Positions 2,529-23,384 of a DNA stretch of 46,390 nt are shown here, piece after piece. The stretch comes from a virus: positions 1-46,390 of IMG/VR virus record IMGVR_UViG_3300001848_000720, one strand, 5' to 3'. The number at the start of each line of letters is the position of its first letter. Positions within the stretch are counted from its first letter, which is position 1. The position numbers and the translations under genes are program-made. Below the pieces are notes generated by a model. It worked only from the letters and a program-made list of their open reading frames with translations. It was not told the DNA's origin and did no database searches.

Positions 2529-2599
2529 CATCGGTCATATATTGATTGTATTTTTATTGTTACAAGTCTACAATTAATTTTTATCAGGAGAAAAATCTT

Positions 2600-3335: not shown

Positions 3336-4310
3336 ATGTCTACAATCCTGATCACAGGTGGGCTGGGATTTATTGGACACAGGGTAAGTGCTTGCTTGGA
3401 AGCTCAGGGGCATGATGTGGTCATAGTGGATACCCAAACTGATTATGGTGTGATCCCTCAGTCCGAGCTTAGTTGGATCATGGACGAGCGTAGAAGTCTG
3501 ATCGCCACCACAAACATCTACTCAATTGATGTGGCAGATAGTGGTGGCATTAACTACGTGATGCGTCGTCATCGTCCCCAGACCGTGATACATCTAGCCA
3601 GCTTCCCCCGACAAAAGGTGGTAAATGCCAACCCCCAATTGGGTGCTAGGACCATGAGCGAGGGTCTGCTGAATCTCTTGGAATCCAGCACCTCACATGA
3701 AGTGGATCGATTCGTTTATGTGAGCTCCAGCATGGTGTATGGTGATTTCTCAGATCAGGTAGGTGAATGGTCCCACTGTGTGCCACAAGGACAGTATGGT
3801 ATCTTGAAACTGGCTGGCGAGTGGTTGGTATATGACTATCATAGGCGTGGATGTTTTGATCATTGCATCATACGTCCCAGTGCTGTGTATGGCCCCCGAG
3901 ACGTGGAAGATCGTGTGGTTTCTCGATTCTTACTAGCCGCCATGCGTGGTGAAACCCTGCGAGTACGTGGTGCCGACGAAGCACTGGATTTTTCCTATGT
4001 GGACGATGTGGCTGCTGGTATAGCTGCGGCAGCCGTACACGATCAATCGCGCAATCGCACATTCAACATCACGCGTGGTCAAAGTCGCACCCTGCTAGAA
4101 GCGGCAGAACTAGCAGTGCGCATAGCTGGGCAGGGCTGTATTGAAGTTCTAGATCGTGATCTGGCCTTTCCCAGTCGTGGATCGTTAAATATATCAGCAG
4201 CTCAACATTGCTGGGGGTATGCGCCCCGGGTTGACATCGAACAAGGTTTCCAAAAATATCATGACTGGCTTGCGAATTCCCTTTATCGGTCTCCAAAAAC
4301 AGTATCATAA
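3336..4310 (+). CDS. NAD-dependent epimerase/dehydratase (extended SDR family)
   Basis: An extended short-chain dehydrogenase of 324 residues, the usual length for nucleotide-sugar epimerases. The N-terminal Rossmann motif GGLGFIG gives G8-x2-G11-x2-G14, followed by an acidic residue near 32 that favours NAD. The catalytic set is visible: SSS at 130-132 and Y154-x3-K158. It probably changes the configuration, or reduces or oxidises, a nucleotide-bound sugar. There is no TDE-type motif of 4,6-dehydratases, so epimerase or reductase is more likely. The last 50 bp overlap the aminotransferase gene, suggesting a two-gene sugar unit. Substrate unknown. Confidence 0.9.
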   Translation: MSTILITGGLGFIGHRVSACLEAQGHDVVIVDTQTDYGVIPQSELSWIMDERRSLIATTNIYSIDVADSGGINYVMRRHRPQTVIHLASFPRQKVVNANPQLGARTMSEGLLNLLESSTSHEVDRFVYVSSSMVYGDFSDQVGEWSHCVPQGQYGILKLAGEWLVYDYHRRGCFDHCIIRPSAVYGPRDVEDRVVSRFLLAAMRGETLRVRGADEALDFSYVDDVAAGIAAAAVHDQSRNRTFNITRGQSRTLLEAAELAVRIAGQGCIEVLDRDLAFPSRGSLNISAAQHCWGYAPRVDIEQGFQKYHDWLANSLYRSPKTVS

Positions 4311-5382
4311 CATACGCCAGGAGATACTGGACGTAACTGATCAGGTGCTGCGCACCGGTCAAGTCATGAATGGTAACTGGACTGTGGAATTTGAGCACTG
4401 GTTAGCCAATCGCAACGGTGTGCAATATGCAGTCACTTGCCATTCGGGTACACAAGCCTTGGAAATAATGGCCACCTTCTATAAGCAATCGCATGCGCCT
4501 GATTCTTGTCCCCGAGTGATGCTACCAGCCTTGACCTATCCCGCCACTGCCAATGCCTGGGCTCGTGCTGGTTGGACCATACATTTCGTGGATGTGGATC
4601 GTTATGGTATCATGGACATCAACACCTTACCCGAGCTGACTGAATTTGATGCTGTATGCCCAGTGGGACTTTATGGGGCGGCATTGGATCACAATCGCAC
4701 CTATCGTACTTGGAGCATCTTTAATCTTGATTTTGCATTGTTAGTGGAAGATGCAGCTCAACACTGGCTCAGCTCAGATTGTACAAGAGTAGGGCGAGCT
4801 GCTGCTATCAGTTTTGACCCTACTAAAAATCTCGGCAATTATGGCAATGGTGGTGCGGTGTTGACCAACCAATTGGGTCTGGCAGAGTTTGCTCGAGAGT
4901 GGCGGGACAACGGGCGCCTTTCGGGATTCTCACATGACCACCCGGTCACCAACAGTCGCATGAGCGAGGTGGATTGTGCTCAGCTCTGGGTCAAGACACA
5001 GCACCTAGATCAATGGCAGCAGCGTAGAGAGAAGATAGCACATTACTGGATAGAACGTCTGGCTGCCAGCGAGATACGATGCTTGATCGATGATACCAAT
5101 GTTCAAACACATTGCTTTCACAAATTTGTAATTGATACTAATCAGCGAGATCGCATTGCACGTCAGATGCAGATACGTGGCGTGGAAACACGGGTTCATT
5201 ACGAACTACCCCTGACCGAAATGGACGCCTATCAAAATTATCCGGGTCCAGACCTGTTGAGCAAGGCCTCCATGTTGAGTCGGCGTGTGCTGAGCCTACC
5301 CTGCTACCCAGAACTTACGGATCTTGAAGTAGAATACATCATTGATCAGCTGTTAGATTCCTACGCAGAAGTGCATAGCTAG
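4261..5382 (+). CDS. DegT/DnrJ/EryC1/StrS-type PLP-dependent sugar aminotransferase
   Basis: The 373-residue product matches the DegT family, which usually transfers an amino group from glutamate to a nucleotide keto-sugar. The PLP-binding lysine is K189 in SFDPTKNLG, with GNGGAV after it. The PLP-phosphate segment CHSGTQALE lies at about 60-68, and VEDAAQ at about 163-168 carries the aspartate that contacts the pyridine nitrogen. I start at ATG 4261, so that the family-typical RIPFIGLQKQY opens the protein; the frame extends to 4219 inside the epimerase gene. The 3' end overlaps the convergent minus-strand gene by 44 bp. Together with the epimerase it suggests amino-sugar synthesis. A 4,6-dehydratase is not seen here and would have to come from elsewhere. 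Confidence 0.92.
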   Translation: MTGLRIPFIGLQKQYHNIRQEILDVTDQVLRTGQVMNGNWTVEFEHWLANRNGVQYAVTCHSGTQALEIMATFYKQSHAPDSCPRVMLPALTYPATANAWARAGWTIHFVDVDRYGIMDINTLPELTEFDAVCPVGLYGAALDHNRTYRTWSIFNLDFALLVEDAAQHWLSSDCTRVGRAAAISFDPTKNLGNYGNGGAVLTNQLGLAEFAREWRDNGRLSGFSHDHPVTNSRMSEVDCAQLWVKTQHLDQWQQRREKIAHYWIERLAASEIRCLIDDTNVQTHCFHKFVIDTNQRDRIARQMQIRGVETRVHYELPLTEMDAYQNYPGPDLLSKASMLSRRVLSLPCYPELTDLEVEYIIDQLLDSYAEVHS

Positions 5383-6955
5383 CCAGCCAGGTCCACTCGT
5401 AACTTTTGCGTAGCTGGTCAAAGTCACCCCGAACCGCATCGTAGTATTCCATGGCATCTTGCGCACCCCATGCGCTCCATATATCATAAGAATGAGGATG
5501 AATGTGTTTGGGGTGTTTGAGCCATTGTCGCAGGCGATATTCATTTTCAGTATCGGGCAGGCTATGTCGTAGTTTGAGGGCTTCGCGAAAAGCGGTACGC
5601 CAGGCCATCCAAGGCGTAGTTGTATAGAATGCTGTGCCCGACAATATAGGTACTACCTCATGAGGTTGGTCCAGAGTGAAATCTAGACCCTGTCCCCGAT
5701 TGCTCAGGACCAGTTCGCGATTGTATGCGATCATGGCCTGGTGTCCATACAGCAAACCATTTACTGGATTTCGCGCATGGAAGATGTAGTGCTTGGCCTG
5801 TTGCATACGGTCCGGTTGCCAGGACCAGTCAAAGTTCTGGTCCACTTCTAGTTTGGCAAACACAGCAAAGAACCAGTCAGTACGGCTGGCCTGCGCCGCA
5901 GCATGATATGCAGCCACACGACCGTTTACACCTGCCACATGAGTAATCCTGTTGCTGTCTGCGCGTTCAACTGCCCAGCGAAGATGTTGATAGTTGTTGT
6001 CGGCCTGGGGTTCCCCGTTGCTGATAAACACCACATCCAAAGTTGTATCAGTTCCTACATATTGGTGTGATCGATCTATGTGTGGATAATCATATATTTG
6101 GTTGCGCAAATGATTCTTGACATCACGTGGTACCAGAATTGAACTAGCACCCGGTGTTAATGGTATCACTGTACGAGTTTGTTCTCGCCAGAGATTCACA
6201 GCAGGAACCGGATCCACTGTCTGTTGATTGGTAAATTGCACCACGGGATGATCAAAGGTATGTTGCTGCACCGCCGGTACCTGGCTGCTATAATTGTGTT
6301 GAACTACCGGGGGTGGCATTCTTGGTACCGATAGTTTTTCTACAAAATTTAGAGTTGGATACCATTCCAGCAATGCGATATCACGGCTGCGTTCCAAGAA
6401 ACTGGGTACATGCACATAAAACGTATCACCAAATCTCTGTTCACTACTAGCAAACACATGCAACATATCCTGCTGCCACTCGCTGGGGTGCCAGGTCCAA
6501 TCAAATACAGTGTAATCGCATAGGTCAGATGTGACCCAACAGTGATCCCAATTGACCTTGGCCAATGCCCTGCGCAATGTGCCCAGATAGTCCGAAATAA
6601 AACGTGTGTTCACATCTCCTGCATCGGGAGAATCAACACAGTGTTTGATGTGTAGTCTAGGCGCGCCGGAGACTCTGGTCACGATTTGGTGATCGCGATT
6701 TACATCTCGAAAACCCTCGCGTGGGATCAGCCAAGTATCACCATTTTCCTGGTGTTGACTGGGCCATACGTGAGCTTGATGAGCTTGCCAAGGTGTGGGT
6801 TCCCACAACCAATCAAATTTGGTATAGTCATTTGCCCCATGTGCTATCCACAGGTAACGTGTGCGACTCTGCAAACGAGCATGATCTATAGTGTCTGCCA
6901 ATCGCTCGTGCGGAAACAAACCGGTGGCTTGATTGATATAGAAAACATCAAACAT
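5339..6955 (-). CDS. Repeat protein of T4-like phages with C-terminal glycosyltransferase-like region (538 aa)
   Basis: Three copies of a unit can be aligned by eye. Each has an aromatic beta-strand, then FDWxWxPxxxQ, then a HV(W/F)-type strand: about residues 44-75 (FDWLWEPTPWQ), 150-185 (FDWTWHPSEWQ) and 370-410 (FDWSWQPDRMQ). The region before the third copy (about 308-365, DVVFISNGEPQADNN and AAYHAAAQASRTDWFF) resembles the N-terminus of the DGD-containing protein encoded at 14463-15392, but has FAKLEV where that protein has IDGDN. A catalytic metal-binding DxD is thus not evident. Start ATG 6955 lies 2 bp after the previous stop. It is the last gene of the minus-strand island. A role in glycan handling is inference. 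Confidence 0.8.
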   Translation of the reverse strand: MFDVFYINQATGLFPHERLADTIDHARLQSRTRYLWIAHGANDYTKFDWLWEPTPWQAHQAHVWPSQHQENGDTWLIPREGFRDVNRDHQIVTRVSGAPRLHIKHCVDSPDAGDVNTRFISDYLGTLRRALAKVNWDHCWVTSDLCDYTVFDWTWHPSEWQQDMLHVFASSEQRFGDTFYVHVPSFLERSRDIALLEWYPTLNFVEKLSVPRMPPPVVQHNYSSQVPAVQQHTFDHPVVQFTNQQTVDPVPAVNLWREQTRTVIPLTPGASSILVPRDVKNHLRNQIYDYPHIDRSHQYVGTDTTLDVVFISNGEPQADNNYQHLRWAVERADSNRITHVAGVNGRVAAYHAAAQASRTDWFFAVFAKLEVDQNFDWSWQPDRMQQAKHYIFHARNPVNGLLYGHQAMIAYNRELVLSNRGQGLDFTLDQPHEVVPILSGTAFYTTTPWMAWRTAFREALKLRHSLPDTENEYRLRQWLKHPKHIHPHSYDIWSAWGAQDAMEYYDAVRGDFDQLRKSYEWTWLASYALLRRNLTADQ

Positions 6956-6957
6956 GA

Positions 6958-8022
6958 TTAACGGGATCTACGATTTGATTTTTCTAAACAGTCAACTTGC
7001 CGCTGCTGGAAATCAGCATCATCCCAGCGATATGGATATTCTGTGTAGGCATCGCTAGTACGTAGACTCCAGACATCAAGATGATTGGCCAAACTGCGCC
7101 ATATCTCGGCATAGTTCAATGTACCAAATGCCTCGCGTAATTTTACTTGTCCTACCTGTGGATGTCCTATTGTGAGAGCAGGATCTTCGGGATCAAAACC
7201 GTTGGCCAATAACCACTGCCGGAATTCCCCGAGCATTTTTTTCTGGAATTCATACTCACCGGGATCATTGGCCCATTCTATATCAAAGTCGCCTGCGGCC
7301 TCGGTTTGACTTCGTAATGCGCTAGTCACTAGTTCGCCTACTCTACTGTCTCGTCCTTCGTCGCAGAACACTTCCCAGTGATGTTTGCCCACTGCTTTGT
7401 TGACACCAACAAATACACCACCCTGGGGTCGATTAATGGTATCTATACCAAACAGCTCGTAATCTTGCGCATCCAATACAAACCTTGGTGCATTGATCCA
7501 ACACATGAGCTGACTAGGGCGTTGCCAAGCAGGGGCTTGTATACGTTTACGATAACTGGTTGCCCAGCATTCAAATTCATGGCACAAGAGATTTAGCTGT
7601 CGGATATGCCATCTGGTGGTAGTGTCGGCTTGGTTCCAATATTGGCTCATGCGACCGCTGGTGCCTTGCAGGTCTTCAAAATAACGATGTAATCGGTTAA
7701 ATCGTTCTCGTTTGATTTTTCTGCCCGGAAGACCATTGCCCACTGGCCCAGACTCGATACAATCTTCCATGGAGAAACGATCATCAATATGGTAACCAAG
7801 ATTGGCAGAATTTATGGCTGCAACACTGGCATTGACTTGATCTAATATAAAGGCACCGTTCCTGGGATGATCTACAAAACCCACAAAGCAGTAGTTTTTT
7901 TCTAAGTGATATGCATCACGTATCAAGATGTTGAGTGCCGATAACCACTTGCGTGATAGCGAAGAATCAAATACATCAATGTTTATTTTGACTTTGTGAT
8001 CTCGATCCCCACGCAATACCAT
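6958..8022 (-). CDS. Hypothetical phage protein in the radical SAM/glycosyltransferase island (354 aa)
   Basis: A soluble protein without membrane segments or a recognised motif. The N-terminus (KVKINIDVFDSSLSRKWLSALN) looks like a domain start. A basic stretch GRKIKRERFNRL lies near residue 100, and Trp/His-rich segments follow. ATG 8022 is preferred because it lies one base after the stop of the upstream radical SAM gene (TGAAATG). The frame stays open upstream to 8106, with another ATG at 8055, but that extension overlaps the radical SAM coding sequence. Its place directly after a radical SAM gene suggests a partner or substrate-handling role, but this is only context. No function is assigned. 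Confidence 0.72.
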   Translation of the reverse strand: MVLRGDRDHKVKINIDVFDSSLSRKWLSALNILIRDAYHLEKNYCFVGFVDHPRNGAFILDQVNASVAAINSANLGYHIDDRFSMEDCIESGPVGNGLPGRKIKRERFNRLHRYFEDLQGTSGRMSQYWNQADTTTRWHIRQLNLLCHEFECWATSYRKRIQAPAWQRPSQLMCWINAPRFVLDAQDYELFGIDTINRPQGGVFVGVNKAVGKHHWEVFCDEGRDSRVGELVTSALRSQTEAAGDFDIEWANDPGEYEFQKKMLGEFRQWLLANGFDPEDPALTIGHPQVGQVKLREAFGTLNYAEIWRSLANHLDVWSLRTSDAYTEYPYRWDDADFQQRQVDCLEKSNRRSR

Positions 8023-8023
8023 T

Positions 8024-9322
8024 TCAATCCGATCTAATACTGTTCCACCAGTCATATAAGTCCCGATCCTGTGATAAAATGTCTGCCATACCGTATGTAT
8101 CACCACGTATGCGTTCTAGCTTCAAAATCCTACGTTTGCCACGTTGTAACCCCTGTTCCCAATCCCGAGGCCAAGCTTCTTGGAACGTGGGTCTAGCCGC
8201 GAGCTGCAACAGCACATCTCTCAAGGCGCCATTGGTCACTGTACACAAACGAGTGACCCACTGTTCCAATAGCGGGCGAGGCAAGGCCAAGGGACTCATC
8301 ACGATATCAGGACTGAAGCTGAATATGACCTTGGCCAATATCTGCACACCCAATTGATTGGCTAGACGTTGTATGGATTCAACTTCTAACAGTCCCGGCA
8401 GTGTCAGAGTAAAGTCTATACGCATCTGTCGCGGGGTTCTTTGTATAGTCATACCCTGTTGGAAATTCTCCAACCATTGCTGATATACCAAACCGGTTCT
8501 TATATACTCGCCAATCTTGCCGGTACCATCAAGACTGGCACAGATCTGCCAATCCCGCACATGACTCAAGATATCCCGATAAAGATTGAAACCACGATAG
8601 TCCACACGACTGAGATTGGTATTATATCTAGCATAGAGTTTTGGTGCATCACCTAGTTCTACTATACGTTGCATATATCGCCAATGTTGCTCATACATCA
8701 AGGGTTCGCCACCTACCCAATAAACTTCTTCCACGCGATGCTGTTCAACTGCTTGAGAAAATTCCTGCTCAACTTGAGTGTCTTGGAACTGATTGATTTG
8801 CTGTCGTACTTCGGGCCGTAGCCAGGCGTTTTGCGGATTATCCCAATTGATCATGTTGTGTTGTCGTTGCTCGGTTTCCCAAGCACTACTCAGCATGTCG
8901 CCGCAGGTACGACATTTGAAATTGCACAGGTTGCTGAACCGATAGTCCCAACTCACAGGACGCATTTGAGTTGAGCCATCCGCATCAGTAAGACGTATGG
9001 CTTCTTCGCGACGATGTCCAAACAGTTGATTGAAGTAATCACGGTACACATTGGTGTTTAGCAATTTGTGATTGCATACTTCACATTCGGGTAATTCTTC
9101 CCCGGCCATCATGCGTCGACGTACGCTACGCATATGATCCGAATTCCAATGTTCGTCCAGCGTGATGGGAATGTATTGACCGGTTCCCGCGGCTGTGTCA
9201 ATGTATTGTTGGAAATTTTGTGCAGGTTCCCGGCTGGCGCAACACATCCTGCGTTCAGTCTGGGGACTGAGGTACGTATGTACCCAAGGTGCCAGACAAA
9301 ATAACTTCAACTGTTCAGTCAT
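8024..9322 (-). CDS. Radical SAM protein with N-terminal twitch-like cysteine region (432 aa)
   Basis: The core radical SAM motif CX3CX2C is at C133, C137 and C140 (NLCNFKCRTCG) and binds the 4Fe-4S cluster that cleaves S-adenosylmethionine. The SAM-contacting GGEP is at 204-207. Before the core are C9 (FCLAPWVH), C27-C28 and C80-x2-C83, a pattern expected of twitch-type auxiliary cluster domains placed N-terminally (the N_Twi_rSAM group). Near 263-285 is DGTGKIGEYIRTGL, shared with the other three radical SAM proteins here. The start overlaps the upstream gene as ATGA. Substrate unknown; peptide or carbohydrate modification is inferred from the neighbours. Confidence 0.9.
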   Translation of the reverse strand: MTEQLKLFCLAPWVHTYLSPQTERRMCCASREPAQNFQQYIDTAAGTGQYIPITLDEHWNSDHMRSVRRRMMAGEELPECEVCNHKLLNTNVYRDYFNQLFGHRREEAIRLTDADGSTQMRPVSWDYRFSNLCNFKCRTCGDMLSSAWETEQRQHNMINWDNPQNAWLRPEVRQQINQFQDTQVEQEFSQAVEQHRVEEVYWVGGEPLMYEQHWRYMQRIVELGDAPKLYARYNTNLSRVDYRGFNLYRDILSHVRDWQICASLDGTGKIGEYIRTGLVYQQWLENFQQGMTIQRTPRQMRIDFTLTLPGLLEVESIQRLANQLGVQILAKVIFSFSPDIVMSPLALPRPLLEQWVTRLCTVTNGALRDVLLQLAARPTFQEAWPRDWEQGLQRGKRRILKLERIRGDTYGMADILSQDRDLYDWWNSIRSD

Positions 9323-10584
9323 ACCCCAAGTTTCTCAGACAACCAAGGGAAAACCAATCGCCAATTGAGATTCCTACGACGATCAATTTCATCAAGGTAA
9401 CATTTCAAGTTATGTTGTTCAGTCAAGTCAATTGTGTTTGCGTTGATAGATTTTATCAAGCCCTTCATATAATTTAGTCTTGTAAAGTCGGGATCAGAAT
9501 AGTTGGTCATCAGAGTCAAAATGTGTTCAAAGTCTTGATCAAAAAATCCCGGACCAAAGATTCTTGGATGTAGGTGTGGTCTCCCATCGACTAATCCAAA
9601 TGCGTGATGTATATTTCGAGTCTGCCGTATTTGATTGATGTAGGTCAACAGGTCCGGTAGTGTTTTAATTGTGAGACTAGTGATGGTATTGTTGATGTTT
9701 ATATCGATCCACCGGTGACTGCACAAGAATTCAAAATTTTGTTTCCATTGTTCTAGATTTAATCCGTAACGTACATATTCTTGTTCGACACCAAAACAGT
9801 CAATGCTGGCTGTGATACACACACGAGCCACCTTTCCTGTTTGGAATGCATGATGCATCTGATCCACAAACTGTTCAAGGATTTTTCTCGAAACCATTAG
9901 ATTGGATACCACAGTAAAATATAGTTTTTGATTTTGATTTGTTGTCACAAAGTCAATTAATCTAAAAAATTCTTTCTGATAAAACGGTTCTCCTCCTAGG
10001 ATGTTTAATTTTTCCAGGTGATGATAATTTTTGTCAAGCCATAGAAAAAACTGGTCGACTAACTCATCTATGCGATCAGATGTGTTGACCAGTGGTATTA
10101 TTTTTCTACCACTAGATCCCGGCACAGAGTATCCATAGCGACGGTTTTCATCATGAATTTGTGTGCTATTGCTTTCGTCGCAGTAGATGCAGGACATGTT
10201 ACATATATTATTGATGAAAACTTCCAACACTGTCGGTGTTACATTTACCGCTTTTGGATCTGTCTCTAATTCTGGTGGTGACATGCCTACTTGATCCATA
10301 TGATATAACCTATCACTGATACCACCTTGAGCCTCAATATGAGCGCAATATTGGCATCCTTTTTTTGTACCTTGCCCGGGAAATTCTCCGGCCAGTTGCA
10401 TTTTTCGATGTTCAATCCATATGGGATGATTGTGAAAATTTTGAAAGTTTTCAACTGTCAAAGGGTCAGTTGATATTACCCTATGGCAACAGGCTGTGGA
10501 TGCCTCTGGTAATCTCAGTGTGTTCCATGACCACTTTAATGGGCATGCTACCCCGGTTCTAATAGGAAAGGTTCTTGATGTCAT
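9319..10584 (-). CDS. Radical SAM protein with N-terminal twitch-like cysteine region (421 aa)
   Basis: Core cluster cysteines are C128, C132 and C135 (NICNMSCIYCD) and GGEP lies at 197-200. The N-terminal cysteine set is C14, C32-C33 (ACCHRV) and C77-x2-C80 (GCQYCAHIEAQG), again suggesting an auxiliary Fe-S cluster ahead of the catalytic barrel. The motif GVEQEYVRYGL near 257 matches the paralogues. The sequence is richer in Lys, Asn and Ile than its paralogues and the gene looks more AT-rich than its neighbours, which may mean a separate origin. Its start overlaps the upstream gene by 4 bp (ATGA), and its stop overlaps the next start the same way, so translation is likely coupled. Confidence 0.9.
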   Translation of the reverse strand: MTSRTFPIRTGVACPLKWSWNTLRLPEASTACCHRVISTDPLTVENFQNFHNHPIWIEHRKMQLAGEFPGQGTKKGCQYCAHIEAQGGISDRLYHMDQVGMSPPELETDPKAVNVTPTVLEVFINNICNMSCIYCDESNSTQIHDENRRYGYSVPGSSGRKIIPLVNTSDRIDELVDQFFLWLDKNYHHLEKLNILGGEPFYQKEFFRLIDFVTTNQNQKLYFTVVSNLMVSRKILEQFVDQMHHAFQTGKVARVCITASIDCFGVEQEYVRYGLNLEQWKQNFEFLCSHRWIDININNTITSLTIKTLPDLLTYINQIRQTRNIHHAFGLVDGRPHLHPRIFGPGFFDQDFEHILTLMTNYSDPDFTRLNYMKGLIKSINANTIDLTEQHNLKCYLDEIDRRRNLNWRLVFPWLSEKLGV

Positions 10585-11918
10585 AGATGTCCTTCATACC
10601 AAGATCTCAAACTTGGAAATGTATTTGTAAAATGTTTACCCCGACGTTGATCATATTGATGATAAAAATTGACAAAGTCTTGCTGTAATTTAGGCATGTC
10701 AAAGGATTCACTATGCGGTGTTTTGACCACATCTAGGTAGTCTATTAACCTTTGTACGTGATTAATTTCGTGCTCGTGCAACAAAGGATTGTCACGATTG
10801 AAATCTAACCAAGCCTCTAGACGTTTGCGATGTCGATCACGCTGCGAATGAGGTAAAACCAACGGTGATTGAAAACTGGGAAATCGTAAAATATTGAGAG
10901 TGAAACTTACACGATTGCGACCGTATGTCTGCTTGATCGCCATGAGCCAAGTGAGGTACTCGGGCAAGCTATCCAGGCACAGAGCGTTTATGGTGCACAT
11001 GCTATGCAATGCCTGTATACGAGATTGATCCAATATCAAATGTATGTTGTCCACCCACTGATTGAACTTCAATCCATCACGAATATATTCAGCTTGAACA
11101 CCCATGGACTCATTGCTGGTATAAATCTCAAGGTGTTCAATATCCTCAACTTGATGCAGGAAATGTTGTATACGATTTTGATCCATGCCCAAGTTACTGT
11201 TGATTGCCAGGTGTGTCTTGCTACGCCCTTGATTGTGTTTGAACCAATCAATCAGTTTCCAAGTATAACCCGACATAAGAGGTTCACCACCGGTGATCCT
11301 GAGCTCCTGTAGGGTGCGATGCAGATCACTCTCCCACCACTCAAAGAATGCCTCGGCGTAGGGATTGATTTCGCCGTACTGATACAGCTGGGCGTTATCG
11401 TGTGCGTGAGTAAAGTGATTTCGTCCATCACTGACCAAGCCCTGGTAGGCGCCGTTTTTATGTATATCGCGTACCCAGGTGCTAGAAAAAGCAGGATTGC
11501 AATAGCTACAGGCAAACTGGCAGGTGCGATCAAAACTGATTTCCAAGGTGCGGAGATTCACATCCTGGTCCGAGGGAGTGTTCCGAGCTTGTTCAAGCGC
11601 CTGGATAGGATATATACGACTTTTGTACACACGATCACTGATGGCATCACGATCCATGTCCTCGATCTTCCAGCAGTATTCGCAGCCTCGCGGTCGTTGT
11701 CCGGTCTGCATAAGAGCACGATCCTGTTTTTTCTCGGGGGTATTGTGCAACAGCCCAGGGTTGGTGCTGACCTTATCTTTGTCTACCAAATGGGCCGGTG
11801 GGTGGTGGCAGCTGGTGGTCATACCGCTGCCAAGCCAAATAGTAGCATTATACCATTTGGCTGCACAAAAACTAGGACTCAGTGTGTCTAATACGCGGCG
11901 GAATTCTTGATCATTCAT
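10581..11918 (-). CDS. Radical SAM protein with N-terminal C-x-HPP and CxxCW motifs (445 aa)
   Basis: Core cluster cysteines C133, C137 and C140 (TCQFACSYCNP); GGEP at 210-213. N-terminal cysteines: C18 (FCAAKW), C37 in SCHHPP, and C79-x2-C82 in CEYCWKIED. It is the closest relative here of the protein at 13025-14455: both have SYC-x-P-x-FSS after the core motif and NPY-x-EAF-x2-WW before GGEP. The start is set at ATG 11918, one base after the upstream stop; the TTG at 11930 that extends the frame lies inside the neighbour. A chemical role cannot be read from sequence. Confidence 0.9.
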   Translation of the reverse strand: MNDQEFRRVLDTLSPSFCAAKWYNATIWLGSGMTTSCHHPPAHLVDKDKVSTNPGLLHNTPEKKQDRALMQTGQRPRGCEYCWKIEDMDRDAISDRVYKSRIYPIQALEQARNTPSDQDVNLRTLEISFDRTCQFACSYCNPAFSSTWVRDIHKNGAYQGLVSDGRNHFTHAHDNAQLYQYGEINPYAEAFFEWWESDLHRTLQELRITGGEPLMSGYTWKLIDWFKHNQGRSKTHLAINSNLGMDQNRIQHFLHQVEDIEHLEIYTSNESMGVQAEYIRDGLKFNQWVDNIHLILDQSRIQALHSMCTINALCLDSLPEYLTWLMAIKQTYGRNRVSFTLNILRFPSFQSPLVLPHSQRDRHRKRLEAWLDFNRDNPLLHEHEINHVQRLIDYLDVVKTPHSESFDMPKLQQDFVNFYHQYDQRRGKHFTNTFPSLRSWYEGHL

Positions 11919-11919
11919 G

Positions 11920-13041
11920 CTAATTTCCAATTTGTCTTTTGTCTAAATATTGTTCCAAATCTGTTATCAGTCGACTTTTTTCCTGTTGATTATATTCTAA
12001 CAATCGTTGATAGTTATACTCGCATGTGGCTCTGGCAGCATTCAAGAATTTTTCAGCACCATTGTAACATATATCAGCCACAACATCAATTATAGATTGA
12101 GCCCGATCAACCGGATCATGAATCTGATCAAATCCTTCATCAATTAAGTCCCCAAATGTACGGAATCCGATATTGTGCAAATCTCGATAAAATCCCGGAT
12201 TGGCTGCCACCACAAACGGATGACACATGATCATGGGTTTCCAGAGTTTTTCTGTGCGGAAACTGCAATCGTATTCAAACACCGATTCGGTCACTAGACT
12301 GAAATAGGTGTCAATGTAGGCTCTGGGATTGATTATTCGATCTCCCCACGAGACGTCTTCAAACAGTTTGCTCTTGGCCCAGTCCATCTGACTATCAATG
12401 CAATTAAATTTGCTCGCAGCCTCAGTAAACTCGTACTTGGATGGCAGTAATCTAATGGGTTCCTTCCAGTCTGGTGTTGGAAGAGTACCAAATATTTCTA
12501 TATCTCTGTCTAAATTGGTCCACAGTGCAGATTCTAGGAGCCCGCGTTTTCGAAGATGATCTATTAGATACTTGCGATGCGAACGTAATCTCCCATTTAG
12601 CATAAGAAATGAGTAGGGCTTATTGATATCTTCGTAAACCTGTTGCCATGATTGACGGGCTACAAGATTTTCTGGTGCTGTTACGATATCAACACACGGA
12701 AAATCATTAATAGTGGTAAGAAATTTAAATTTGGTATTATAATTGCCACCGTGCATCAAGCCCAATGTACCATTGCTGAGAGCTGGCATAATGTTTAACA
12801 ATTCAATCTGTCTTATCAACATCGCCGATCCCTCGGCAGTATAGCTCAATATGACATTTCGTTGTGACTTTGATAATATATCCTCACGAGATCTAGACAG
12901 CGTATTTCTACCCACGATGTAAAACGTGCTATTGCAGAATTTCACCTCTTCCCAACAAGAAAAAACTTCGTCGGCGTAAGGTTCAAGCAAACAAAAGGTA
13001 TCAGCACCACGATCAACTGCTAATCTATATTTTCCGAGCAT
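11920..13041 (-). CDS. Putative glycosyltransferase, exostosin/fucosyltransferase-like C-terminal half (373 aa)
   Basis: The C-terminal half carries SLVTES (248-253), RTEKLWKP (262-269) and HPFVVAANPGFYRDL (274-288). This resembles the nucleotide-sugar-binding end of GT-B enzymes such as exostosin-like or GT10 proteins, where a T-E-K element precedes a strand and a Gly/Pro loop. The middle has LNGRLRSHRKYL (about 148-159), as in related phage proteins. No DxD is needed in GT-B folds. I start at ATG 13041, with AGGAA 10 bp upstream; a GTG at 13050 is also in frame. The gene lies between two closely related radical SAM genes. Donor and acceptor are unknown. Confidence 0.7.
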   Translation of the reverse strand: MLGKYRLAVDRGADTFCLLEPYADEVFSCWEEVKFCNSTFYIVGRNTLSRSREDILSKSQRNVILSYTAEGSAMLIRQIELLNIMPALSNGTLGLMHGGNYNTKFKFLTTINDFPCVDIVTAPENLVARQSWQQVYEDINKPYSFLMLNGRLRSHRKYLIDHLRKRGLLESALWTNLDRDIEIFGTLPTPDWKEPIRLLPSKYEFTEAASKFNCIDSQMDWAKSKLFEDVSWGDRIINPRAYIDTYFSLVTESVFEYDCSFRTEKLWKPMIMCHPFVVAANPGFYRDLHNIGFRTFGDLIDEGFDQIHDPVDRAQSIIDVVADICYNGAEKFLNAARATCEYNYQRLLEYNQQEKSRLITDLEQYLDKRQIGN

Positions 13042-14455
13042 AATATTCACATTCCTGCCACCAGGTGCGCATCTCGGGAAATGTAGCTAAAAAATCTGTA
13101 CCACGCCGTCGGTCGTGCTCGCTAAAGAAACGATAAAAATCGGCCATATGACGATGGCGTTGCTGTTCGGGCATACGTTGTCCATCACGCATCCAAGCTA
13201 TGTCGCGATCCAGGCGGGCGATTTCATAATCTTTGAATCCTTGAAATCGAGTTTCTGGTGTTTCGGTCTGGCGTAACATCCAGGCCCAAAGCAGTTCTAG
13301 CTGATCCACATAGCTTTCGGGCAGTATCTGCAGGCTCTGCCAAGCCGGTTGTCTCAATACCGGGGTGTCAAACCATATTCGTTGATAGGTGTCACTGTAG
13401 GCTTTCCTCAAGCCCAGAATGCCTGCAAACAATTTCTCCAGGCCCGATACTGATAGATTGTTCATTGTGACTATGAACGTGATGCTGTTTCGAGATGGAA
13501 TGTCGGTGAGGAACTGGTTCACCCGATCCCAGAGCAGATCAAAGTTGAGCCCATGACGTATGTATTGGGCCTGATCTCCCCAGCTATCCAAGCTCACAAA
13601 CTGCATGAAATGTTCCAGCTGACCCTCCTGGCACAGCGTCTGGAGGTAACCTTTGTAGCGTTGCCAGCTGTGTTCATCTACAGAAAAGTTACTGGTCACA
13701 CAGAGATGCAGGTCCGAGCGCGGATGCTCTAACACATAGTCAAACACACGATAGGTATTGCGATCCAGCAAAGGTTCACCACCGGTCATGCGGAAATGTG
13801 TCAGCCGGGGATAGAGTTCAGGCCACCACTGCCAGAAAGCCTCTACATAGGGATTGTGTTCACGGGCAGGAATAGGGCGGCGATCCCCAACAAAATGCTC
13901 AGGAGCATTATGAGGTACCAGGGTAGGGTAAGCACCCAATCTAGTGACTTCGTCTGCCCATGAGCTACTAAACTGAGGACTGCAATAGCTACACCTAAGA
14001 TTGCAAACGTGATTGAAGTTGACTTCAACATAGCTAGGAACAACATCTTCATCTCCGGTTGAATTGCGTACGCGATCAAAATCTCGAGCTGCCCATGGCT
14101 CACCACTACGGTAATGTCGATCACTCAGTTTGCCTTGATCCTCCATGTTCCAACAATACTGGCATTCTGGGGGTCGCTCGCCGGCCAGCATGAGTTTTCT
14201 TTGCTGTTTTTTATAGTCGGTGTTGTGCAAGGCCGCGGGATTGCGCCCGATAGACTCCACAGGTATGCGATGCAGGGGTGGATGATAACAACTGTTGTTG
14301 AGCCCCGTGGGCAGGTGTAGGCTTACCTGTTGCCATTTGGCCAAGCACAGAGCCGGACCCAGCTGCTCATGCATCTGTTCGGCCGCGGTGAGAAACTGGC
14401 TGCGGAAATGCGTATCAACTTGATCACCTGGGTTGTCTTTGTTGCTATCTGACAT
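13025..14455 (-). CDS. Radical SAM protein with N-terminal C-x-HPP and CxxCW motifs (476 aa)
   Basis: First radical SAM gene in transcription order. Core cysteines C151, C155 and C158 (VCNLRCSYCSP), GGEP at 225-228, N-terminal cysteines C37 (LCLAKW), C56 in SCYHPP, and C98-x2-C101 in CQYCWNMED. DSWGDQAQYIRHGL near 274-287 is the shared downstream motif. This layout fits an N-terminal twitch-type auxiliary cluster plus a standard partial TIM barrel. Its ATG lies 7 bp after the stop of the DGD-type glycosyltransferase-like gene, and its end overlaps the next gene by 17 bp. No substrate peptide gene is obvious beside it. Confidence 0.91.
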   Translation of the reverse strand: MSDSNKDNPGDQVDTHFRSQFLTAAEQMHEQLGPALCLAKWQQVSLHLPTGLNNSCYHPPLHRIPVESIGRNPAALHNTDYKKQQRKLMLAGERPPECQYCWNMEDQGKLSDRHYRSGEPWAARDFDRVRNSTGDEDVVPSYVEVNFNHVCNLRCSYCSPQFSSSWADEVTRLGAYPTLVPHNAPEHFVGDRRPIPAREHNPYVEAFWQWWPELYPRLTHFRMTGGEPLLDRNTYRVFDYVLEHPRSDLHLCVTSNFSVDEHSWQRYKGYLQTLCQEGQLEHFMQFVSLDSWGDQAQYIRHGLNFDLLWDRVNQFLTDIPSRNSITFIVTMNNLSVSGLEKLFAGILGLRKAYSDTYQRIWFDTPVLRQPAWQSLQILPESYVDQLELLWAWMLRQTETPETRFQGFKDYEIARLDRDIAWMRDGQRMPEQQRHRHMADFYRFFSEHDRRRGTDFLATFPEMRTWWQECEYYARKI

Positions 14456-14462
14456 GTATCTA

Positions 14463-15392
14463 TTACCAGCCTTCTTGACGACGTATCACATCAATTTCGC
14501 GAACCATGATGCCGCGGTTGCACCAATCACCGAGATAGTGACGTTTGAAAAATGCACTCTGTTCTGCTTCAAACATGCTGACCGGTAGACCCAATTGCTC
14601 ATGCAATTCAAGACCAAGTTGACCTGCCAATACTCTAGGATCTGACGTTTGTACAGTATCCCATAGCTGGATCAATTGATCAAAATCTTGCACCGCATGA
14701 TAATCCCAATTTGTGAGCATGGTCATATAGGTACCCTGCCGCGCACCAGCCATGGCCCAACGACCATGCTCCACATCAGATCCTATGTTATGCCATATGG
14801 TAAGATGATCGAGATTGCGGCGATGTACACGTTCACGAAATTCAGACACAGTGGGACGATGCCCCTGATTGAGGCACATTTTGACACCTTCGCGGAAACC
14901 GGCACGCCAGGCCTGGAATGCCGAACCATTGGGATAGGTAGTGCTATAGCAATCATACATGCTCCAATACAGCGGATCCCAACAGAATTCAACTTGAGTT
15001 TCCGTGGCACCATCTGATGCTTCATGGGTTCGCATGCTATTCACGTAACTTCTTGTCCAACAGCTGATACCACCATTGCCATATTTCAAACCATTGATGT
15101 GATTGTGTGCTCGCCAACGATATACCGCCTTCTCCCATTGTTCATCAACAAATTCCAGCGTGAGATTGAAGAACGCTGCATCTGGTAAATTATCTCCATC
15201 GATCAAGACAAATCGTTCGGTATCACTGGCTTCGGCAGCGGCCTTGTGTGCAGCATCACTACCCTTGATGCCATGTACGCGGCGTGCCCACGGCACTAGA
15301 TTAGAGATTTTGGCCCAAAATTCTTCACATTGGGGTTCATCATAGCTGAGATAGATACAATCAATATCTGCGATATCTAGATATTGAGTCAT
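14463..15392 (-). CDS. Glycosyltransferase-like protein with DGD motif (309 aa)
   Basis: The N-terminus looks like a GT-A nucleotide-sugar-binding domain: IYLSYDEPQ at about 13-21, then FVLIDGDN with D65-G-D67 as a DxD-type metal and donor site. A large aromatic-rich region follows (Trp/Tyr segments near 85-175). The family recurs in T4-like phages, and the region from 11 to 70 aligns by eye with the C-terminal part of the 538-residue protein at 5339-6955. Start ATG 15392 overlaps the upstream stop as ATGA; the frame stays open to 15440 but would overlap further. Glycan transfer is likely, with an unknown target. Confidence 0.75.
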   Translation of the reverse strand: MTQYLDIADIDCIYLSYDEPQCEEFWAKISNLVPWARRVHGIKGSDAAHKAAAEASDTERFVLIDGDNLPDAAFFNLTLEFVDEQWEKAVYRWRAHNHINGLKYGNGGISCWTRSYVNSMRTHEASDGATETQVEFCWDPLYWSMYDCYSTTYPNGSAFQAWRAGFREGVKMCLNQGHRPTVSEFRERVHRRNLDHLTIWHNIGSDVEHGRWAMAGARQGTYMTMLTNWDYHAVQDFDQLIQLWDTVQTSDPRVLAGQLGLELHEQLGLPVSMFEAEQSAFFKRHYLGDWCNRGIMVREIDVIRRQEGW

Positions 15393-15709
15393 GATTGGCT
15401 CCAACACACGTGATTCTGGTCCGTGGTAACCACCACACATATATCCCTGGGATCGCAGGGTGTACCGACGTCACTGGGTTTGAGTTTATGTCCGGTGGGT
15501 AATATTACCAGCCGACCTTGCTGCACTCTCACATTCAGTGGTTGCCGTTGATAGCATTCAGCATCAATTTCTATATATTCCCCCGGGAGATCCTCCATGG
15601 TATAACAAACAGGTTTTCCTTTTGAGTCGTAATATAAACGGTAACTCGCTAGTTTGGGTTCAGGCATAGCGTGTAATGTGCCCCAAAATTCTTCTGGTGT
15701 TATCGACAT
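15389..15709 (-). CDS. Small conserved hypothetical protein in the glycosyltransferase operon (106 aa)
   Basis: A 106-residue, probably mainly beta protein. It has SYRLYYDSKGKPVCYTMED near 29-47 and a DLPGEYIEI strand, and no catalytic signature, signal or membrane segment. The start at ATG 15709 overlaps the upstream glycosyltransferase gene by 10 bp, and the stop overlaps the next start by 4 bp. The longer frame to 15745 would overlap further and is less likely. Its fixed place between two glycosyltransferase-like genes suggests an accessory or partner role, which is inference only. Confidence 0.72.
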   Translation of the reverse strand: MSITPEEFWGTLHAMPEPKLASYRLYYDSKGKPVCYTMEDLPGEYIEIDAECYQRQPLNVRVQQGRLVILPTGHKLKPSDVGTPCDPRDICVVVTTDQNHVCWSQS

Positions 15710-16425
15710 AACCAATCCTTGTGATGATAGTGTACCAGGCCCCATTGAGCCACGGTATTGATACGTAAGCCGGGATCTGTAAATTCCCAGATCAAGTCTT
15801 GAGTCCAGTCGGGATGTTGTGTTCCCGCGATGTGTGATTTCATATGTACTATGGTTGGACCCAGGCCAGGTGGCAGTGTAACTTGATCCACACCCAGTAT
15901 CACAGCCACCATGGCATACACCACGTCGGTGCTGGGTTGATCTTCGCTGAACCGTAATAGGCGACGATAATCATGCCAATTGGAAAAAATTTCTCTCACA
16001 AGGCCAAAGAATTTCTGCGCCCCAGGAGAAAGACGCCAATAGGTGATGGCATTATAAACATCCGGTAAATCGTTGGCATCGAATACCTGTCGATAATGTC
16101 GCACAGCAGTGACACGATCGTAGTAGTCCCGAGCACCACAACTGATTACTACATCACGATTTTCAAACAGTGTCCACCAATGATCTATGGGACTAGCACA
16201 CCACATGTCGGCTTCCAGTTTAATAGTTTGTCGATAGGGACTAGCACCAAACACTTGCCAATCATTGGCATATCCACCTTGATCACCGTACGGCAGATCT
16301 GTCATGATGGTGATGTTGGCATCGGGGTGCCACTCTAGGATAGAATCTCGTAGACGCTCCGCGCAGGTGAGATAGGTTGCGCCCCAGGCCGGTATAAGAT
16401 ATCCACGTTCAGCTGTGATTGCCAA
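15700..16425 (-). CDS. Putative GT-A glycosyltransferase (241 aa, TTG start)
   Basis: The protein begins with a short strand (GYLIPAWG), then a helix of the type seen in GT8-like enzymes. KLEADMWC around 69-76 gives E71-A-D73 at the position of the donor- and metal-binding DxD. Downstream are PDVYNAITYWR near 120-130, a likely acceptor-side segment, and a Trp/His-rich end (VHYHHKDW). The only reasonable start is TTG 16425: a stop codon precedes it directly in frame and the first in-frame ATG is about 40 codons inside the domain. It overlaps the upstream gene by 17 bp. Probably the same broad fold as the protein at 16409-17170. Confidence 0.78.
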   Translation of the reverse strand: MAITAERGYLIPAWGATYLTCAERLRDSILEWHPDANITIMTDLPYGDQGGYANDWQVFGASPYRQTIKLEADMWCASPIDHWWTLFENRDVVISCGARDYYDRVTAVRHYRQVFDANDLPDVYNAITYWRLSPGAQKFFGLVREIFSNWHDYRRLLRFSEDQPSTDVVYAMVAVILGVDQVTLPPGLGPTIVHMKSHIAGTQHPDWTQDLIWEFTDPGLRINTVAQWGLVHYHHKDWLCR

Positions 16426-17170
16426 CTATGACTCCCAATTGTTGTTTTCCCATGGCATGAAAATCCTGTCCACGGAGTTGCAACCAATATCTACGATCTT
16501 GGTTAACGAAATCTACCCGATAACTGTCTTGATCCTGACAAGTGAGCTGATGTTGCGGCATCAAGGTAGCCAGAGACCAGGGTATGGCTGCATGATCCAA
16601 CACATGTCCGTTGACGATACCCAGTGCCATGCTCAAGGCATGATCGTTGCGATAGGTGTTTTTGTGGTTGTGGTAGATTTGCCGATAGTGATTCCAGTGC
16701 TCGCGTATCATGATCATGGAATCAAATATCAATTCTGCGGCTCGGCTGCGCCTGAACATCATGACGGTAGCCCACCACTGTGGCATACGTACCGCACCAA
16801 AATAGTTGTGGTCCTCAAACGAGCTGATTCCCGTGACATCATGTGCCCAACGATGCGCTACAAAATCCAGGTCCAGGTCCAACAATACCGACAACTGATC
16901 GCTGGCCACCACATAATCTGCATCCAGCACCAGAGTACGTTCCCACGGCGAAACACGATAGGCATCCACGCGGGACTCATTGTACCAAAACATGTGACGA
17001 CCGTAATCGGGAAACCAGCGACTCTGTGCAGGTCGAGCTAGATCTCGTTCTGTCACAATGTGAGTGGGGATACCCAGATGCCGTTCAATATTGCAGGCCG
17101 ACCACTGAGCCAGGGCCTCATAATTGATCTCGTTGTTGTTGATAGCAAAGATTAACGCGCCGGTGGTCAT
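16409..17170 (-). CDS. Putative GT-A glycosyltransferase with DAD motif (253 aa)
   Basis: The N-terminal beta strand ALIFAINNN and the later TLVLDADYVV (D83-A-D85) form a typical GT-A donor-site arrangement. NDHALSMALG near 174-183 resembles the conserved second-half segment of such enzymes. Its length is in the usual range for a single catalytic domain, with no membrane anchor, so it would act in the cytoplasm of the infected cell. The start ATG overlaps the stop of the 101-residue gene as ATGA. Donor and acceptor are unknown; fibre or cell-surface glycan are the likely options by context. Confidence 0.8.
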   Translation of the reverse strand: MTTGALIFAINNNEINYEALAQWSACNIERHLGIPTHIVTERDLARPAQSRWFPDYGRHMFWYNESRVDAYRVSPWERTLVLDADYVVASDQLSVLLDLDLDFVAHRWAHDVTGISSFEDHNYFGAVRMPQWWATVMMFRRSRAAELIFDSMIMIREHWNHYRQIYHNHKNTYRNDHALSMALGIVNGHVLDHAAIPWSLATLMPQHQLTCQDQDSYRVDFVNQDRRYWLQLRGQDFHAMGKQQLGVIVGNHS

Positions 17171-17472
17171 CGTGTTTGATTACAGTTCTGATATTCCACC
17201 AACCAGGCATTCATTTGTTCTTGAAATCGATCCCGCATGAGAGCGCACAATTCTTGCGCGTTGACTGTGATGGGATTTTCATACAGATCCGGGATTACTA
17301 TGGTTTGATCACCGTACAGATTCAAAAACGTGATCATTTCAGGTGAGGCTCGGAACATGCCGCCATGATAACCAAAATTCAATTTGGCTTGATATTTTTC
17401 TTTGATTGTCCGACGTTGTTGAGCGTGGTCAAATCGAGTTCGAGCATGTGCAATCGTGGTGTTGGTATCCAT
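17167..17472 (-). CDS. Small conserved phage protein beside the fibre gene (101 aa)
   Basis: A soluble 101-residue protein with two likely parts: a basic N-terminal helix (RTRFDHAQQRRTIKEKYQ) and a domain with LNFGYHGGMFRASPEM and LYENPITVNAQELC. It lies 37 bp downstream of the large fibre gene and is coupled by ATGA to the glycosyltransferase genes. Small genes placed after phage fibre genes often encode fibre-assembly helpers or regulators, but no motif here proves that. I do not recognise a named family. Confidence 0.72.
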   Translation of the reverse strand: MDTNTTIAHARTRFDHAQQRRTIKEKYQAKLNFGYHGGMFRASPEMITFLNLYGDQTIVIPDLYENPITVNAQELCALMRDRFQEQMNAWLVEYQNCNQTR

Positions 17473-17509
17473 GCTTTATTTTAGCAGGGTTGCACCAACA
17501 CCACAACAA

Positions 17510-20500
17510 TTATCGAGCCAGACTGTAGTTAAATGGATTTTCAGCAAATGCAGCAAAAATGTAATTTGGATTAACGCTACTAGCATTGTAAATAGACGTA
17601 GAATTTCTAATTTTAAATCCGTTGGCAAGAAAGTCAACATAATAAACTGACGGGCCAGATTCATAAATTGCCGCATTGGGGAATAAAGTTAGATCAGCAG
17701 CATTATAAAAATTCCTTGCAGTATCTTCTATTATCCAGTCGCCTGTGCCGTCTGTACGTTTGATCAAAATAAATCTAGGCCTAAATCCCAAATACACAAA
17801 CGGCCCGTCAGCAGCACCATTACCAGTATAAGAACCAAATGCACTGAATCCTGCAACAGGAGCGAAGCAGTAGGTTACATAAGTTCCGCCAGATAAATTT
17901 GTTGCCGTGCTAGTTCCAACAGAAAACACCGAAGATGTTGGAGAAGTACTGTTCCATATTGTGGCATCAGGGCCATACTGCGCGGCGTTACTATTCAAAG
18001 CTATCAAATATTGATTGCTAGTCAAAGAAGTGTGCCAACATTGTTTGTTGTATATTGTACTTCCTGTTCTTGGCATACTCATAAAAAAAGATGGGGCAAC
18101 ACCAAGACCATGTCCCACCGTGGCATTGGCACCTGTGCCAGTCCATGTTGCAATACTAAATCCCGCCGTGGTGTTTACACACACCGTTGAAGTGATAGAA
18201 CCGTTGGTATTGGTTGAGGTAGTTCCTGCCCCGGCCAACCACTGCCATGCCACGTAAGTGTTGGTATTGATGTTGACCCCAACCGAACCGGCATCGCTAC
18301 CCACAGTAAATCCACTACTACCAAACGCGGTCAAGGTATTGGCATCGGTGTATTCTCCAGTCTGACTATTGGAAATCAGGTACTTGGTAGTTCCGCGAAC
18401 TGAATCAAACAGGTTGTTGTTTGTAGCAGCTGATCTGCTCTTGATCCAAACTAGGTCAGGCTTAAATGACACAGAACCCACAGTATCAGACACACTCTGT
18501 GTGGCGCCAGTTCCGGTATAGAGCGAAGCTGCCATATAACCAGCACCGTTCGCGATGGCAGGTGCGGCAAGGTTGGGGGCGCAGAGTGCGGAGTAGCCAG
18601 AGGGCGGAGCATAGCTGAACGGTTGCTGCCCAAAGTTAATACTCCATGATCCACTAGATGACTGCATACTAACCATGGGCTTCCATGGGCTTGATGTGTT
18701 TGTTACTGTTCTGGTTGTTCCCTGAATTACATTATTTTTGTACCAAGTTACAGTGTTATTAGTCGAATCAAATGCTACCCCGATAATATCACCGGCTGTG
18801 TACGTGGATCCAGAAGTGCTGGGGGTGCAACCGTAAATAGTGCCATCTGCTTGATAACCAGCAGCACTATTATTTGGTGAAATATATGTGGCCGATGTGG
18901 CACCTATGCTGTCTACACGACCCTCAAAATAGTATTTCCCCGGTGTAGCAACCATTGTTGCGTATGCATATATTTGCAACAACCCAGATGCAGTGGCTTT
19001 CATGTTTGCATTGGAAAGCGTTGGATTGAGATAGGAAACCGAAGATTGATTTTCTACCGGACTAAAGGTGGGATAATTTCCACTGGGTGTGGTAGCACTG
19101 GCCTGACCAGTACAGTAGGGAGCATCACGCATCTGATCATAGGTGGCATCGGGTGCAATACTGATGTTGTTCGGTGTCCAATTGTTGCTGTTACCACTAA
19201 AATCACTGCATAGAGTAGAAGCCGAAGTGGAATCAGTGAATGGCAAGTAGAAACCATTGGTACCATAGGTACCGGTATACCGGATGGGTACCCAAGTTCC
19301 AGTGGTGGCGTCGGTTTGTCCAAAGCTGGAAGGGGTCAACTGCTGACCATCGATGAAATTGGCTTCGGCAATGTAGCCATCATAAAAGCTGCTAAACCCC
19401 GATGTACCATAGGCACCAAAATTATGCAGCACTGTGCTATTATTAATCCACGAATTGAAATTTTGTGGTGGATAAGTAGCAGTCGAAAAAGAGGTCAGTT
19501 GCACTCCATTAACATAGAGTTTTACACGATTTGATGCTGTTGCTTGTGTTGTGTCTATGGCAGCAACAACATGATACCAAGCCGAAGGGTCACGAAAAAC
19601 CGGGGTGCTAATTATCTGATAAAGCCAATCGTTAGTCACTCCATTTGCAGTGTAATATTCGGCCCACTCTAGACTATCACCACCAAAACACAATATAGAA
19701 ACTTTTTGTGGTGTACCATAACCACTACCTATGTCTGCCCCAAAAATACCATAGGTATTGGCGCTTGATAAAGTTGCTCGCTTGACCCATCCACTCCAGG
19801 TAAAAGTTTGCGTGTTGGTAGTGGTTGCTGGAGTTCTACTCAAATAAGCAGATGCACTAGAACGAAGTCTCAAGGAACGATAGATCTGATAATTCAATGC
19901 AGGATAGGTCACTGCCACTGTGGGAGTACCCCATGTGTTACTTAAACCATTGGCTGTGCTGGGCGGTACGTATCGAACCAAGACCGCAGGTGCCGACCCA
20001 AATGTGGTGAATGGCGAAGCTGTGTCTGTGCCGCCCGAAATATTGCGTGATAGTCCGGGTCCAAATGCACCACCATCCTGCCAGGTAGTGGTAAGAGTCA
20101 ACACGGTACCAGAAGCATCCACTGCGGCCGCAATGCTTATGGTGTCATTGGTATAACCCGACGCTGTATTGGTCAGAGTCATCATGGTGGTTGCTGCTGC
20201 ACCCGGTGTTAGATTGTACCAACCCGTGGTTGTTAGGTTGGGCGAGGGTGTGCCTGTACCGCCAGATCGTGTGAAGCCGGTATAAACACTGGCAGCAATG
20301 GTTTGCGATGCACTGTTTACTCTACCGCTAAGATAAAATGTGCCCACGCTACTAACAAATGTGTTCCAGTCAGCATCGCTGTCAGTGCCAGTAGAAGTCT
20401 TGCTCATGTCTATACGCACTAGACCTCCTGCATTCCAGAAGTATCGTGCTTGGTTGGCGCTGGGGAAAGTCACGGTGTGCTGCCATGTTATCGTCCAGGG

Positions 20501-23376: not shown

Positions 23377-23384
23377 TATTTATA
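23377..23384 (-). promoter_or_regulatory. T4-type late promoter motif TATAAATA before the repeat fibre gene
   Basis: A perfect match to the T4 late promoter -10-type element TATAAATA on the minus strand, 22 bp upstream of the ATG at 23354. The stop codon TAA of the upstream 201-residue gene (23380-23382) is embedded in it. The 12-base string TATAAATATCAC recurs exactly at the gp25-like gene. Confidence 0.75.

Follow-up and report, generated by a model that had tools for sequence, protein, structure and literature searches.

Known systems and the locus

In bacterial flagellin glycosylation islands, genes for filament proteins adjoin swapping sets of soluble sugar-nucleotide and transferase genes. 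The locus described here, from IMG/VR virus record IMGVR_UViG_3300001848_000720, has a similar layout but is phage-borne and carries a battery of radical S-adenosylmethionine (rSAM) enzymes. The record (46,390 bp, probably a fragment) was analysed as a whole and is called the window; coordinates refer to it unless another locus is named. Twelve open minus-strand open reading frames (ORFs) at 5339-17472, hereafter the island, lie downstream of the structural gene f201 and two tail-fibre genes, fibreB and fibreA, and include four rSAM genes and several genes for glycosyltransferase (GT)-like proteins.

Among phages, the marine, T4-like pelagimyophages have rSAM and glycosyltransferase cassettes near the tail fibres in their host recognition cluster, from which the authors inferred modification of the host O-chain (PMC7029224). 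Common to both settings are a large island on the tail-fibre side, glycosyltransferases (putative ones here), and rSAM cassettes, which in that study were additions in two genomes compared; the pelagimyophage clusters are non-syntenic and variable with few rSAMs reported (PMC7029224), whereas in our family, a lineage of jumbo phages, five rSAMs keep a fixed order and the GT-like core is constant. Mycobacteriophage glycosyltransferases glycosylate virion proteins, with capsid targets reported (Freeman et al. 2023, cited in PMC11256854). Phage-encoded glycosyltransferases for virion proteins would be the shared feature, GT-like proteins and a virion glycan being the predicted counterparts here, but that text reports capsid targets and mentions no rSAM enzymes (PMC11256854). 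The four window rSAMs are members of NF033640 (N_Twi_rSAM), a family whose library entry gives no function, and differ in that several paralogues share one operon with GT-like genes. The Hxs rSAM/peptide system resembles, in its way of working only, a second cassette described below, which pairs rSAMs with tandem H-x-S-C tails in Atu_ph07, Phosso and locus L170; it is absent from the window, and HxsB/HxsC models scored far below cut-off. In the library searched, we found no paper describing a fixed module of multiple rSAMs and GT-like proteins.

A conserved module beside the tail-fibre genes

Large water-borne phages carry a fixed set of about five rSAMs plus sugar-handling enzymes directly beside their tail-fibre genes. 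Scanning viral contigs with the window's rA protein gave 178 relatives, 80 of which were kept. Long loci were defined as those extending 9 kb or more on both sides of rA, of which there were 47. The gene order fibreB-fibreA-s101-GT253-GT241-s118-GT325-[variable]-rA-g376-rB-rC-rD-[variable]-rE-g382-[carbamoyltransferase] was kept in 46/47 long loci and the strand in 47/47. Both rB and rC were present in all 47, rD and rE each in 46, and 46/47 had at least five rSAM copies. So that the rSAMs played no part in the choice, a second set of loci was collected with f201 alone; N-twitch rSAMs were present in 52, and the GT-like core in 54, of the 57 that extended at least 8 kb downstream. Two of the five rSAM-less loci (L144, L163) retained GT-like core genes and ended where the available DNA stopped, and the module was absent from L129, L170 and L181. 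The co-occurrence with fibre genes in related phages that the initial annotation had proposed as its own check was found in nearly all of them in both samples, and the arrangement is far beyond chance.

Conservation differed among the island genes. Median identity to the window was 68–73% for GT325, rA, rB and rE, the most conserved of the island (GT325 shared 63-75% with its relatives), and 40–53% for GT253, GT241 and g376, which suggests a constant core chemistry with changing outer sugars.

The ORF calls upheld two further statements of the initial annotation, that the island comprises twelve minus-strand genes and that it directly follows two fibre genes, with 37 bp between fibreA and the first island gene, s101. 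Neighbouring genes overlap, as had been described, or nearly abut, but the sizes given (1-17 bp overlaps) did not hold: the longest ORFs overlap by 4–83 bp or leave gaps of 2–7 bp, the larger overlaps being due in part to the use of the first possible start codons.

Radical SAM paralogues

Four window ORFs, all on the minus strand, exceeded the curated NF033640 cut-off of 170 bits over most of the model, in agreement with the four rSAM genes first annotated. These N-terminal twitch proteins are rA (13025-14455; 311.6 bits), rB (10581-11930; 291.0 bits), rE (8024-9322; 285.8 bits) and rF (9319-10584; 198.9 bits). No further NF033640 copy was found elsewhere in the 46,390-bp record. All four retained CxxxCxxC and four N-terminal (auxiliary-cluster) cysteines, and seven cysteines and a GGEP motif were invariant in 31 aligned paralogues, from which all four window proteins would be expected to be active. 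An rSAM tree resolved types A-E plus a rarer sixth, F. Types A, B, E and F are represented in the window, which lacks rC and rD; its rF clustered with those of L010, L026, L034, L074, L077 and L079. In the window's nearest relative, L001, rC and rD form one 862-aa frame (6778-9366 of that locus), a possible natural fusion.

The predicted structure of rA was confident (predicted local distance difference test, pLDDT, 91.8). Its nearest solved structures were SkfB (best), BlsE, AprD4 and viperin, partial matches that all had TM-scores <0.5 and do not decide the substrate of rA. Weak viperin-like and MoaA-like profile matches occurred among the rSAMs; a viperin-type antiviral rSAM was ruled out by scores of 16–25 bits against the NF038283 cut-off of 180 bits.

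A cellular origin of the rSAMs was also considered and rejected, as the best genome-collection matches (L086-L091) look like phage contigs within genome bins; the remaining cellular matches were distant (25–32%) and lacked the module. Four of these phage-like contigs from marine genome bins (L086, L088, L089, L091) had the same fibre-GT-rSAM set, with rE preceding rD wherever both were present. L086-L091 carry module genes and are filed as Pelagibacter, Pacearchaeota, Betaproteobacteria and other bacterial or archaeal bins, and are probably misbinned phage DNA. When rA, rB, GT325, GT241, g382, s101 and fibreA were compared with isolated-phage records, the only matches were weak ones to rA in Vibrio phages K566 and K567. 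The sequenced isolate K566 (L302; 152952-177662 of its record) carries four N-twitch rSAMs, accompanied by GT-like genes and by a Ser-rich protein that looks structural.

Glycosyltransferase-like proteins and sugar genes

The initial annotation had listed DxD-type and GT-B-like glycosyltransferases. Motif conservation agrees with this: D81 and D83 form an invariant DxD in the 325-aa family, D83 and D85 in the 253-aa family, and E71 and D73 an invariant ExD in the 241-aa family. GT325 (14463-15440, minus strand; invariant DGD) belongs to the first of these, GT253 (16409-17170, minus) and GT241 (15700-16425, minus; phrog_1903, of unknown function) to the other two, which are homologous to each other (hhalign 99.1%). 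Confirmation by profile was weak for the 325-aa family, where Glyco_tranf_2_3 matched 9/22 members (best E 1.2e-3); the 241-, 253- and 376-aa families gave neither a profile nor a PDB match that could be used, GT253 itself having no Pfam GT match. The labels are drawn from the invariant DxD-type motifs and mutual homology, from which we infer sugar transfer. GT-B-like g376 (11920-13050, minus; 42/47 long loci) was called at motif level, and a 538-aa protein at the downstream end of the island (5339-6955, minus) scored 44 bits against the GT325 profile, to which its residues ~305-463 are related.

Where the initial annotation had left a glycan or a peptide pathway open, the genes in and around the module favour the former. 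Variable genes with Pfam matches comprised GDP-mannose dehydratase, a second sugar epimerase, GHMP kinase, PfkB-family kinase, cupin and AMP-ligase, and by sequence appearance others were SGNH-hydrolase-like, DegT-like and GT-B-like. Many loci have genes for a carbamoyltransferase (x490) and an FkbM methyltransferase immediately after g382. On the plus strand of the window, a DegT/DnrJ/EryC1-type sugar aminotransferase (4219-5382; PF01041, E 9.8e-55) converges on the island beside an NAD-dependent sugar epimerase/dehydratase (3336-4310; PF01370, E 2.5e-41). Judged by predicted function, gene content in and beside the module is that of a glycan locus. No protein with two hydrophobic segments was found among the core families or 201 accessory ORFs; polytopic membrane steps, such as those of a flippase or polymerase, are therefore not encoded.

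Three further minus-strand genes complete the island. Its first gene, s101 (17167-17472; 101 aa; 45/47 long loci), and s118 (15389-15745; 39/47 long loci) encode small proteins of unknown function. The phage protein g382 (6958-8106, with a true start that may be the ATG at 8055) gave a confident model (pLDDT 84.4) without a fold match in the PDB; its fold is common to ten phage proteins, apparently including a 300-aa protein of Atu_ph07, perhaps gp166 to go by its length.

Fibre genes and transcription

FibreB (20910-23354, minus; 814 aa; 46/47 long loci) has a tail fibre PHROG match. FibreA (17510-20899, minus; 1129 aa) begins with a conserved Ser/Thr-rich part of about 330 aa, the proposed acceptor, and its family averages 30% Ser+Thr. 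The C-terminal part has DUF7483 and SPRY domains; these ~800 extra residues of the window's fibreA are missing from most relatives (~326 aa).

The late-promoter motif TATAAATA stands just upstream of fibreB in the window (23377-23384, minus) and within 60 bp upstream of it in 49/69 relatives, and had one occurrence in 830 kb of fibreA-to-rE sequence. The initial annotation had reported no late promoter between the fibre genes and the island, and TATAAATA was indeed not found in the window's fibreA-island gap (17473-17509, minus). In relatives, however, this gap is the start of a separate transcription unit: it holds a terminator-like hairpin in 57/70 (1% in shuffles) and a sigma-70-like promoter of the form TTTACT-N16-18-TATAAT in 41/70 (0.2% in shuffles), with a -10 box a few bases before the ATG in 59. 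In these phages, therefore, the island forms its own transcription unit under a host-type promoter, and the idea that it simply continues the transcription of the fibre genes by late read-through is rejected for the family. The window's own gap is degenerate, with TAAAAT only; for this genome a separate promoter would be predicted from the relatives. As judged from these motifs, transcription of the island is probably not late.

An alternative rSAM cassette at the same site

Two cultured phages, Atu_ph07 and Phosso, have different rSAM genes downstream of their homologues of f201, fibreB and the window's 4,896-aa protein. These rSAMs are not of the N-twitch type, one has a SPASM match above cut-off, and they adjoin a protein (296 and 306 aa) with CHSSCHASCHNSRSRR or CHTSCHASCHSSRSRR at its end. 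Such structural-type proteins with a CHxxCHxSCHxSRxRR tail lie beside SPASM-type rSAMs in Atu_ph07 (gp170; L101:23119-24009), Phosso (L085:25415-26335) and L170 (L170:14597-16110). L170 belongs to the window's own clade (f201 73%), and there the cassette, with two tail proteins, replaces the GT/N-twitch module. Different rSAM cassettes can thus occupy the site behind the fibres, an arrangement that speaks for modification of the neighbouring structural proteins.

A pattern scan returned at least 120 viral stretches with the CHxxCHxSCHxSRxRR tail. An rSAM candidate lay within 3 kb of it in 51/76 loci, the nearest always on the same strand where found, as against 3/111 large ORFs of the structural region that passed the same crude rSAM test as a control. 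These pairs are possibly a widespread, Hxs-like modification of phage proteins. No Cys/His-rich CHxS-type tail was present in the window or in loci with the N-twitch module, and a RiPP-type (ribosomally synthesized and post-translationally modified peptide) substrate was rejected for the window's lineage.

Proposed function of the island

We propose, as an evenly balanced call, that the island encodes a soluble jumbo-phage pathway by which a virion protein, most likely the neighbouring Ser/Thr-rich fibreA, receives an rSAM-tailored glycan. Judging by the relatives, the enzymes would be made before assembly from their own host-type promoter. The glycan would be built in the cytoplasm from nucleotide sugars. 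Sugar transfer would fall to the GT-like proteins (325, 253 and 241, plus 376 and 538 in the window), and the N-twitch rSAM paralogues would act one after another, by radical chemistry, on the sugars or on the linkage between protein and sugar. The product would be placed on fibreA or a similar virion protein. Around a constant GT325-rA-rB core, the variable genes would change the outer residues, and the benefit may be to diversify or protect the receptor-binding fibres. This proposal is supported by the order kept in 46/47 long loci, the 52/57 f201-chosen loci, the carbohydrate enzymes, the absence of membrane proteins and the conserved cluster ligands, as well as by the 30% Ser+Thr of fibreA, the alternative cassette of Atu_ph07, Phosso and L170, and the gene set of K566. 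A broader formulation, to which we lean a little less than evenly, is a dedicated radical fibre-modification locus, in which about five sequential rSAMs and soluble GTs build a new glycan or glycan-protein linkage on the tail fibres and whose slot alternatively holds a peptide-tail-modifying cassette. Several points weigh against the virion-glycan proposal. The acceptor site and the modification are predictions, and many fibre proteins are rich in Ser and Thr. No profile confirms the GT-like proteins, and the separate sigma-70-type promoter means that late co-expression with the fibres is not required. The loci also come from related phages, so that linkage is partly descent; conservation therefore shows that the set was kept, not that it was assembled independently.

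The same promoter fits the main rival, which we regard as unlikely though worth weighing: that the island remodels the host lipopolysaccharide O-chain early, blocking adsorption of competing phages, with fibre and receptor-modifying genes co-inherited. Sugar-nucleotide and O-carbamoylation genes are known from O-antigen loci as well, and host-surface remodelling has been proposed for the glycosyltransferases of the pelagimyophage host recognition cluster (PMC7029224). Lipid-linked O-antigen remodelling, however, would be expected to involve membrane components such as a flippase, a membrane GT or a polymerase, and neither these nor an initiating sugar-phosphate transferase or other membrane protein occurred among the core and accessory genes, although host enzymes could supply the missing membrane step; moreover, the same locus can instead be occupied by an rSAM cassette whose neighbours are structural-type proteins with the CHxS tail, the GT-like module being absent. 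That second cassette, with its SPASM-type rSAMs paired with CHxxCHxSCHxSRxRR-ending proteins in Atu_ph07, Phosso and L170 and its 51/76 proximity, instead brings to mind RiPP-maturase-like chemistry, in which the window rSAMs would modify a virion protein, either fibreA or one of the small island proteins, in its side chains or backbone while the GT-like proteins glycosylate those residues or act separately. The best fold match is the RiPP maturase SkfB, and the best PDB sequence match of the N-twitch family, 8vpo, has been used elsewhere as a structure containing a RiPP recognition element. These matches are weak (TM-score <0.5) and mainly cover the rSAM core, the Atu_ph07 and Phosso enzymes are of another type, and the CHxS tail is missing from the window and its N-twitch-module relatives, and we consider peptide modification rather improbable. 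The weak viperin-like and MoaA-like matches would suit a role of the rSAMs unrelated to the fibres, with a small metabolite or a modified nucleotide as product (viperin-like chemistry or DNA modification). With viperin scores far below cut-off, no nucleotide-processing genes in the island core, and N-twitch rSAMs among GT-like genes also in the distantly related K566, this is very improbable.

Lineage and flanking genes

A baseplate wedge protein, the 4,896-aa protein and f201 tie the window to jumbo phages of the Rak2/Atu_ph07 type. The 4,896-aa protein is a single ORF (24151-38841) homologous to a virion structural protein of 4.4–4.6 thousand residues in Atu_ph07 and Phosso. On the plus strand beside the island, an ORF at 2546-3286 resembles a ThyX-type thymidylate synthase (by eye only) and another at 3-1238 has an HNH endonuclease PHROG match.

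Implications

If the proposed modification of fibreA or a similar virion protein is correct, phages would alter their own receptor-binding machinery by multi-step radical chemistry, adding to phage-host recognition a layer that would escape host prediction from sequence. Isolates for testing the proposal already exist: Vibrio phages K566 and K567, which have four N-twitch rSAMs with GT-like genes, and Atu_ph07 and Phosso for the alternative cassette. It would also make these loci a source of new glycan- or peptide-modifying enzymes and give a function to the large orphan enzyme family NF033640.

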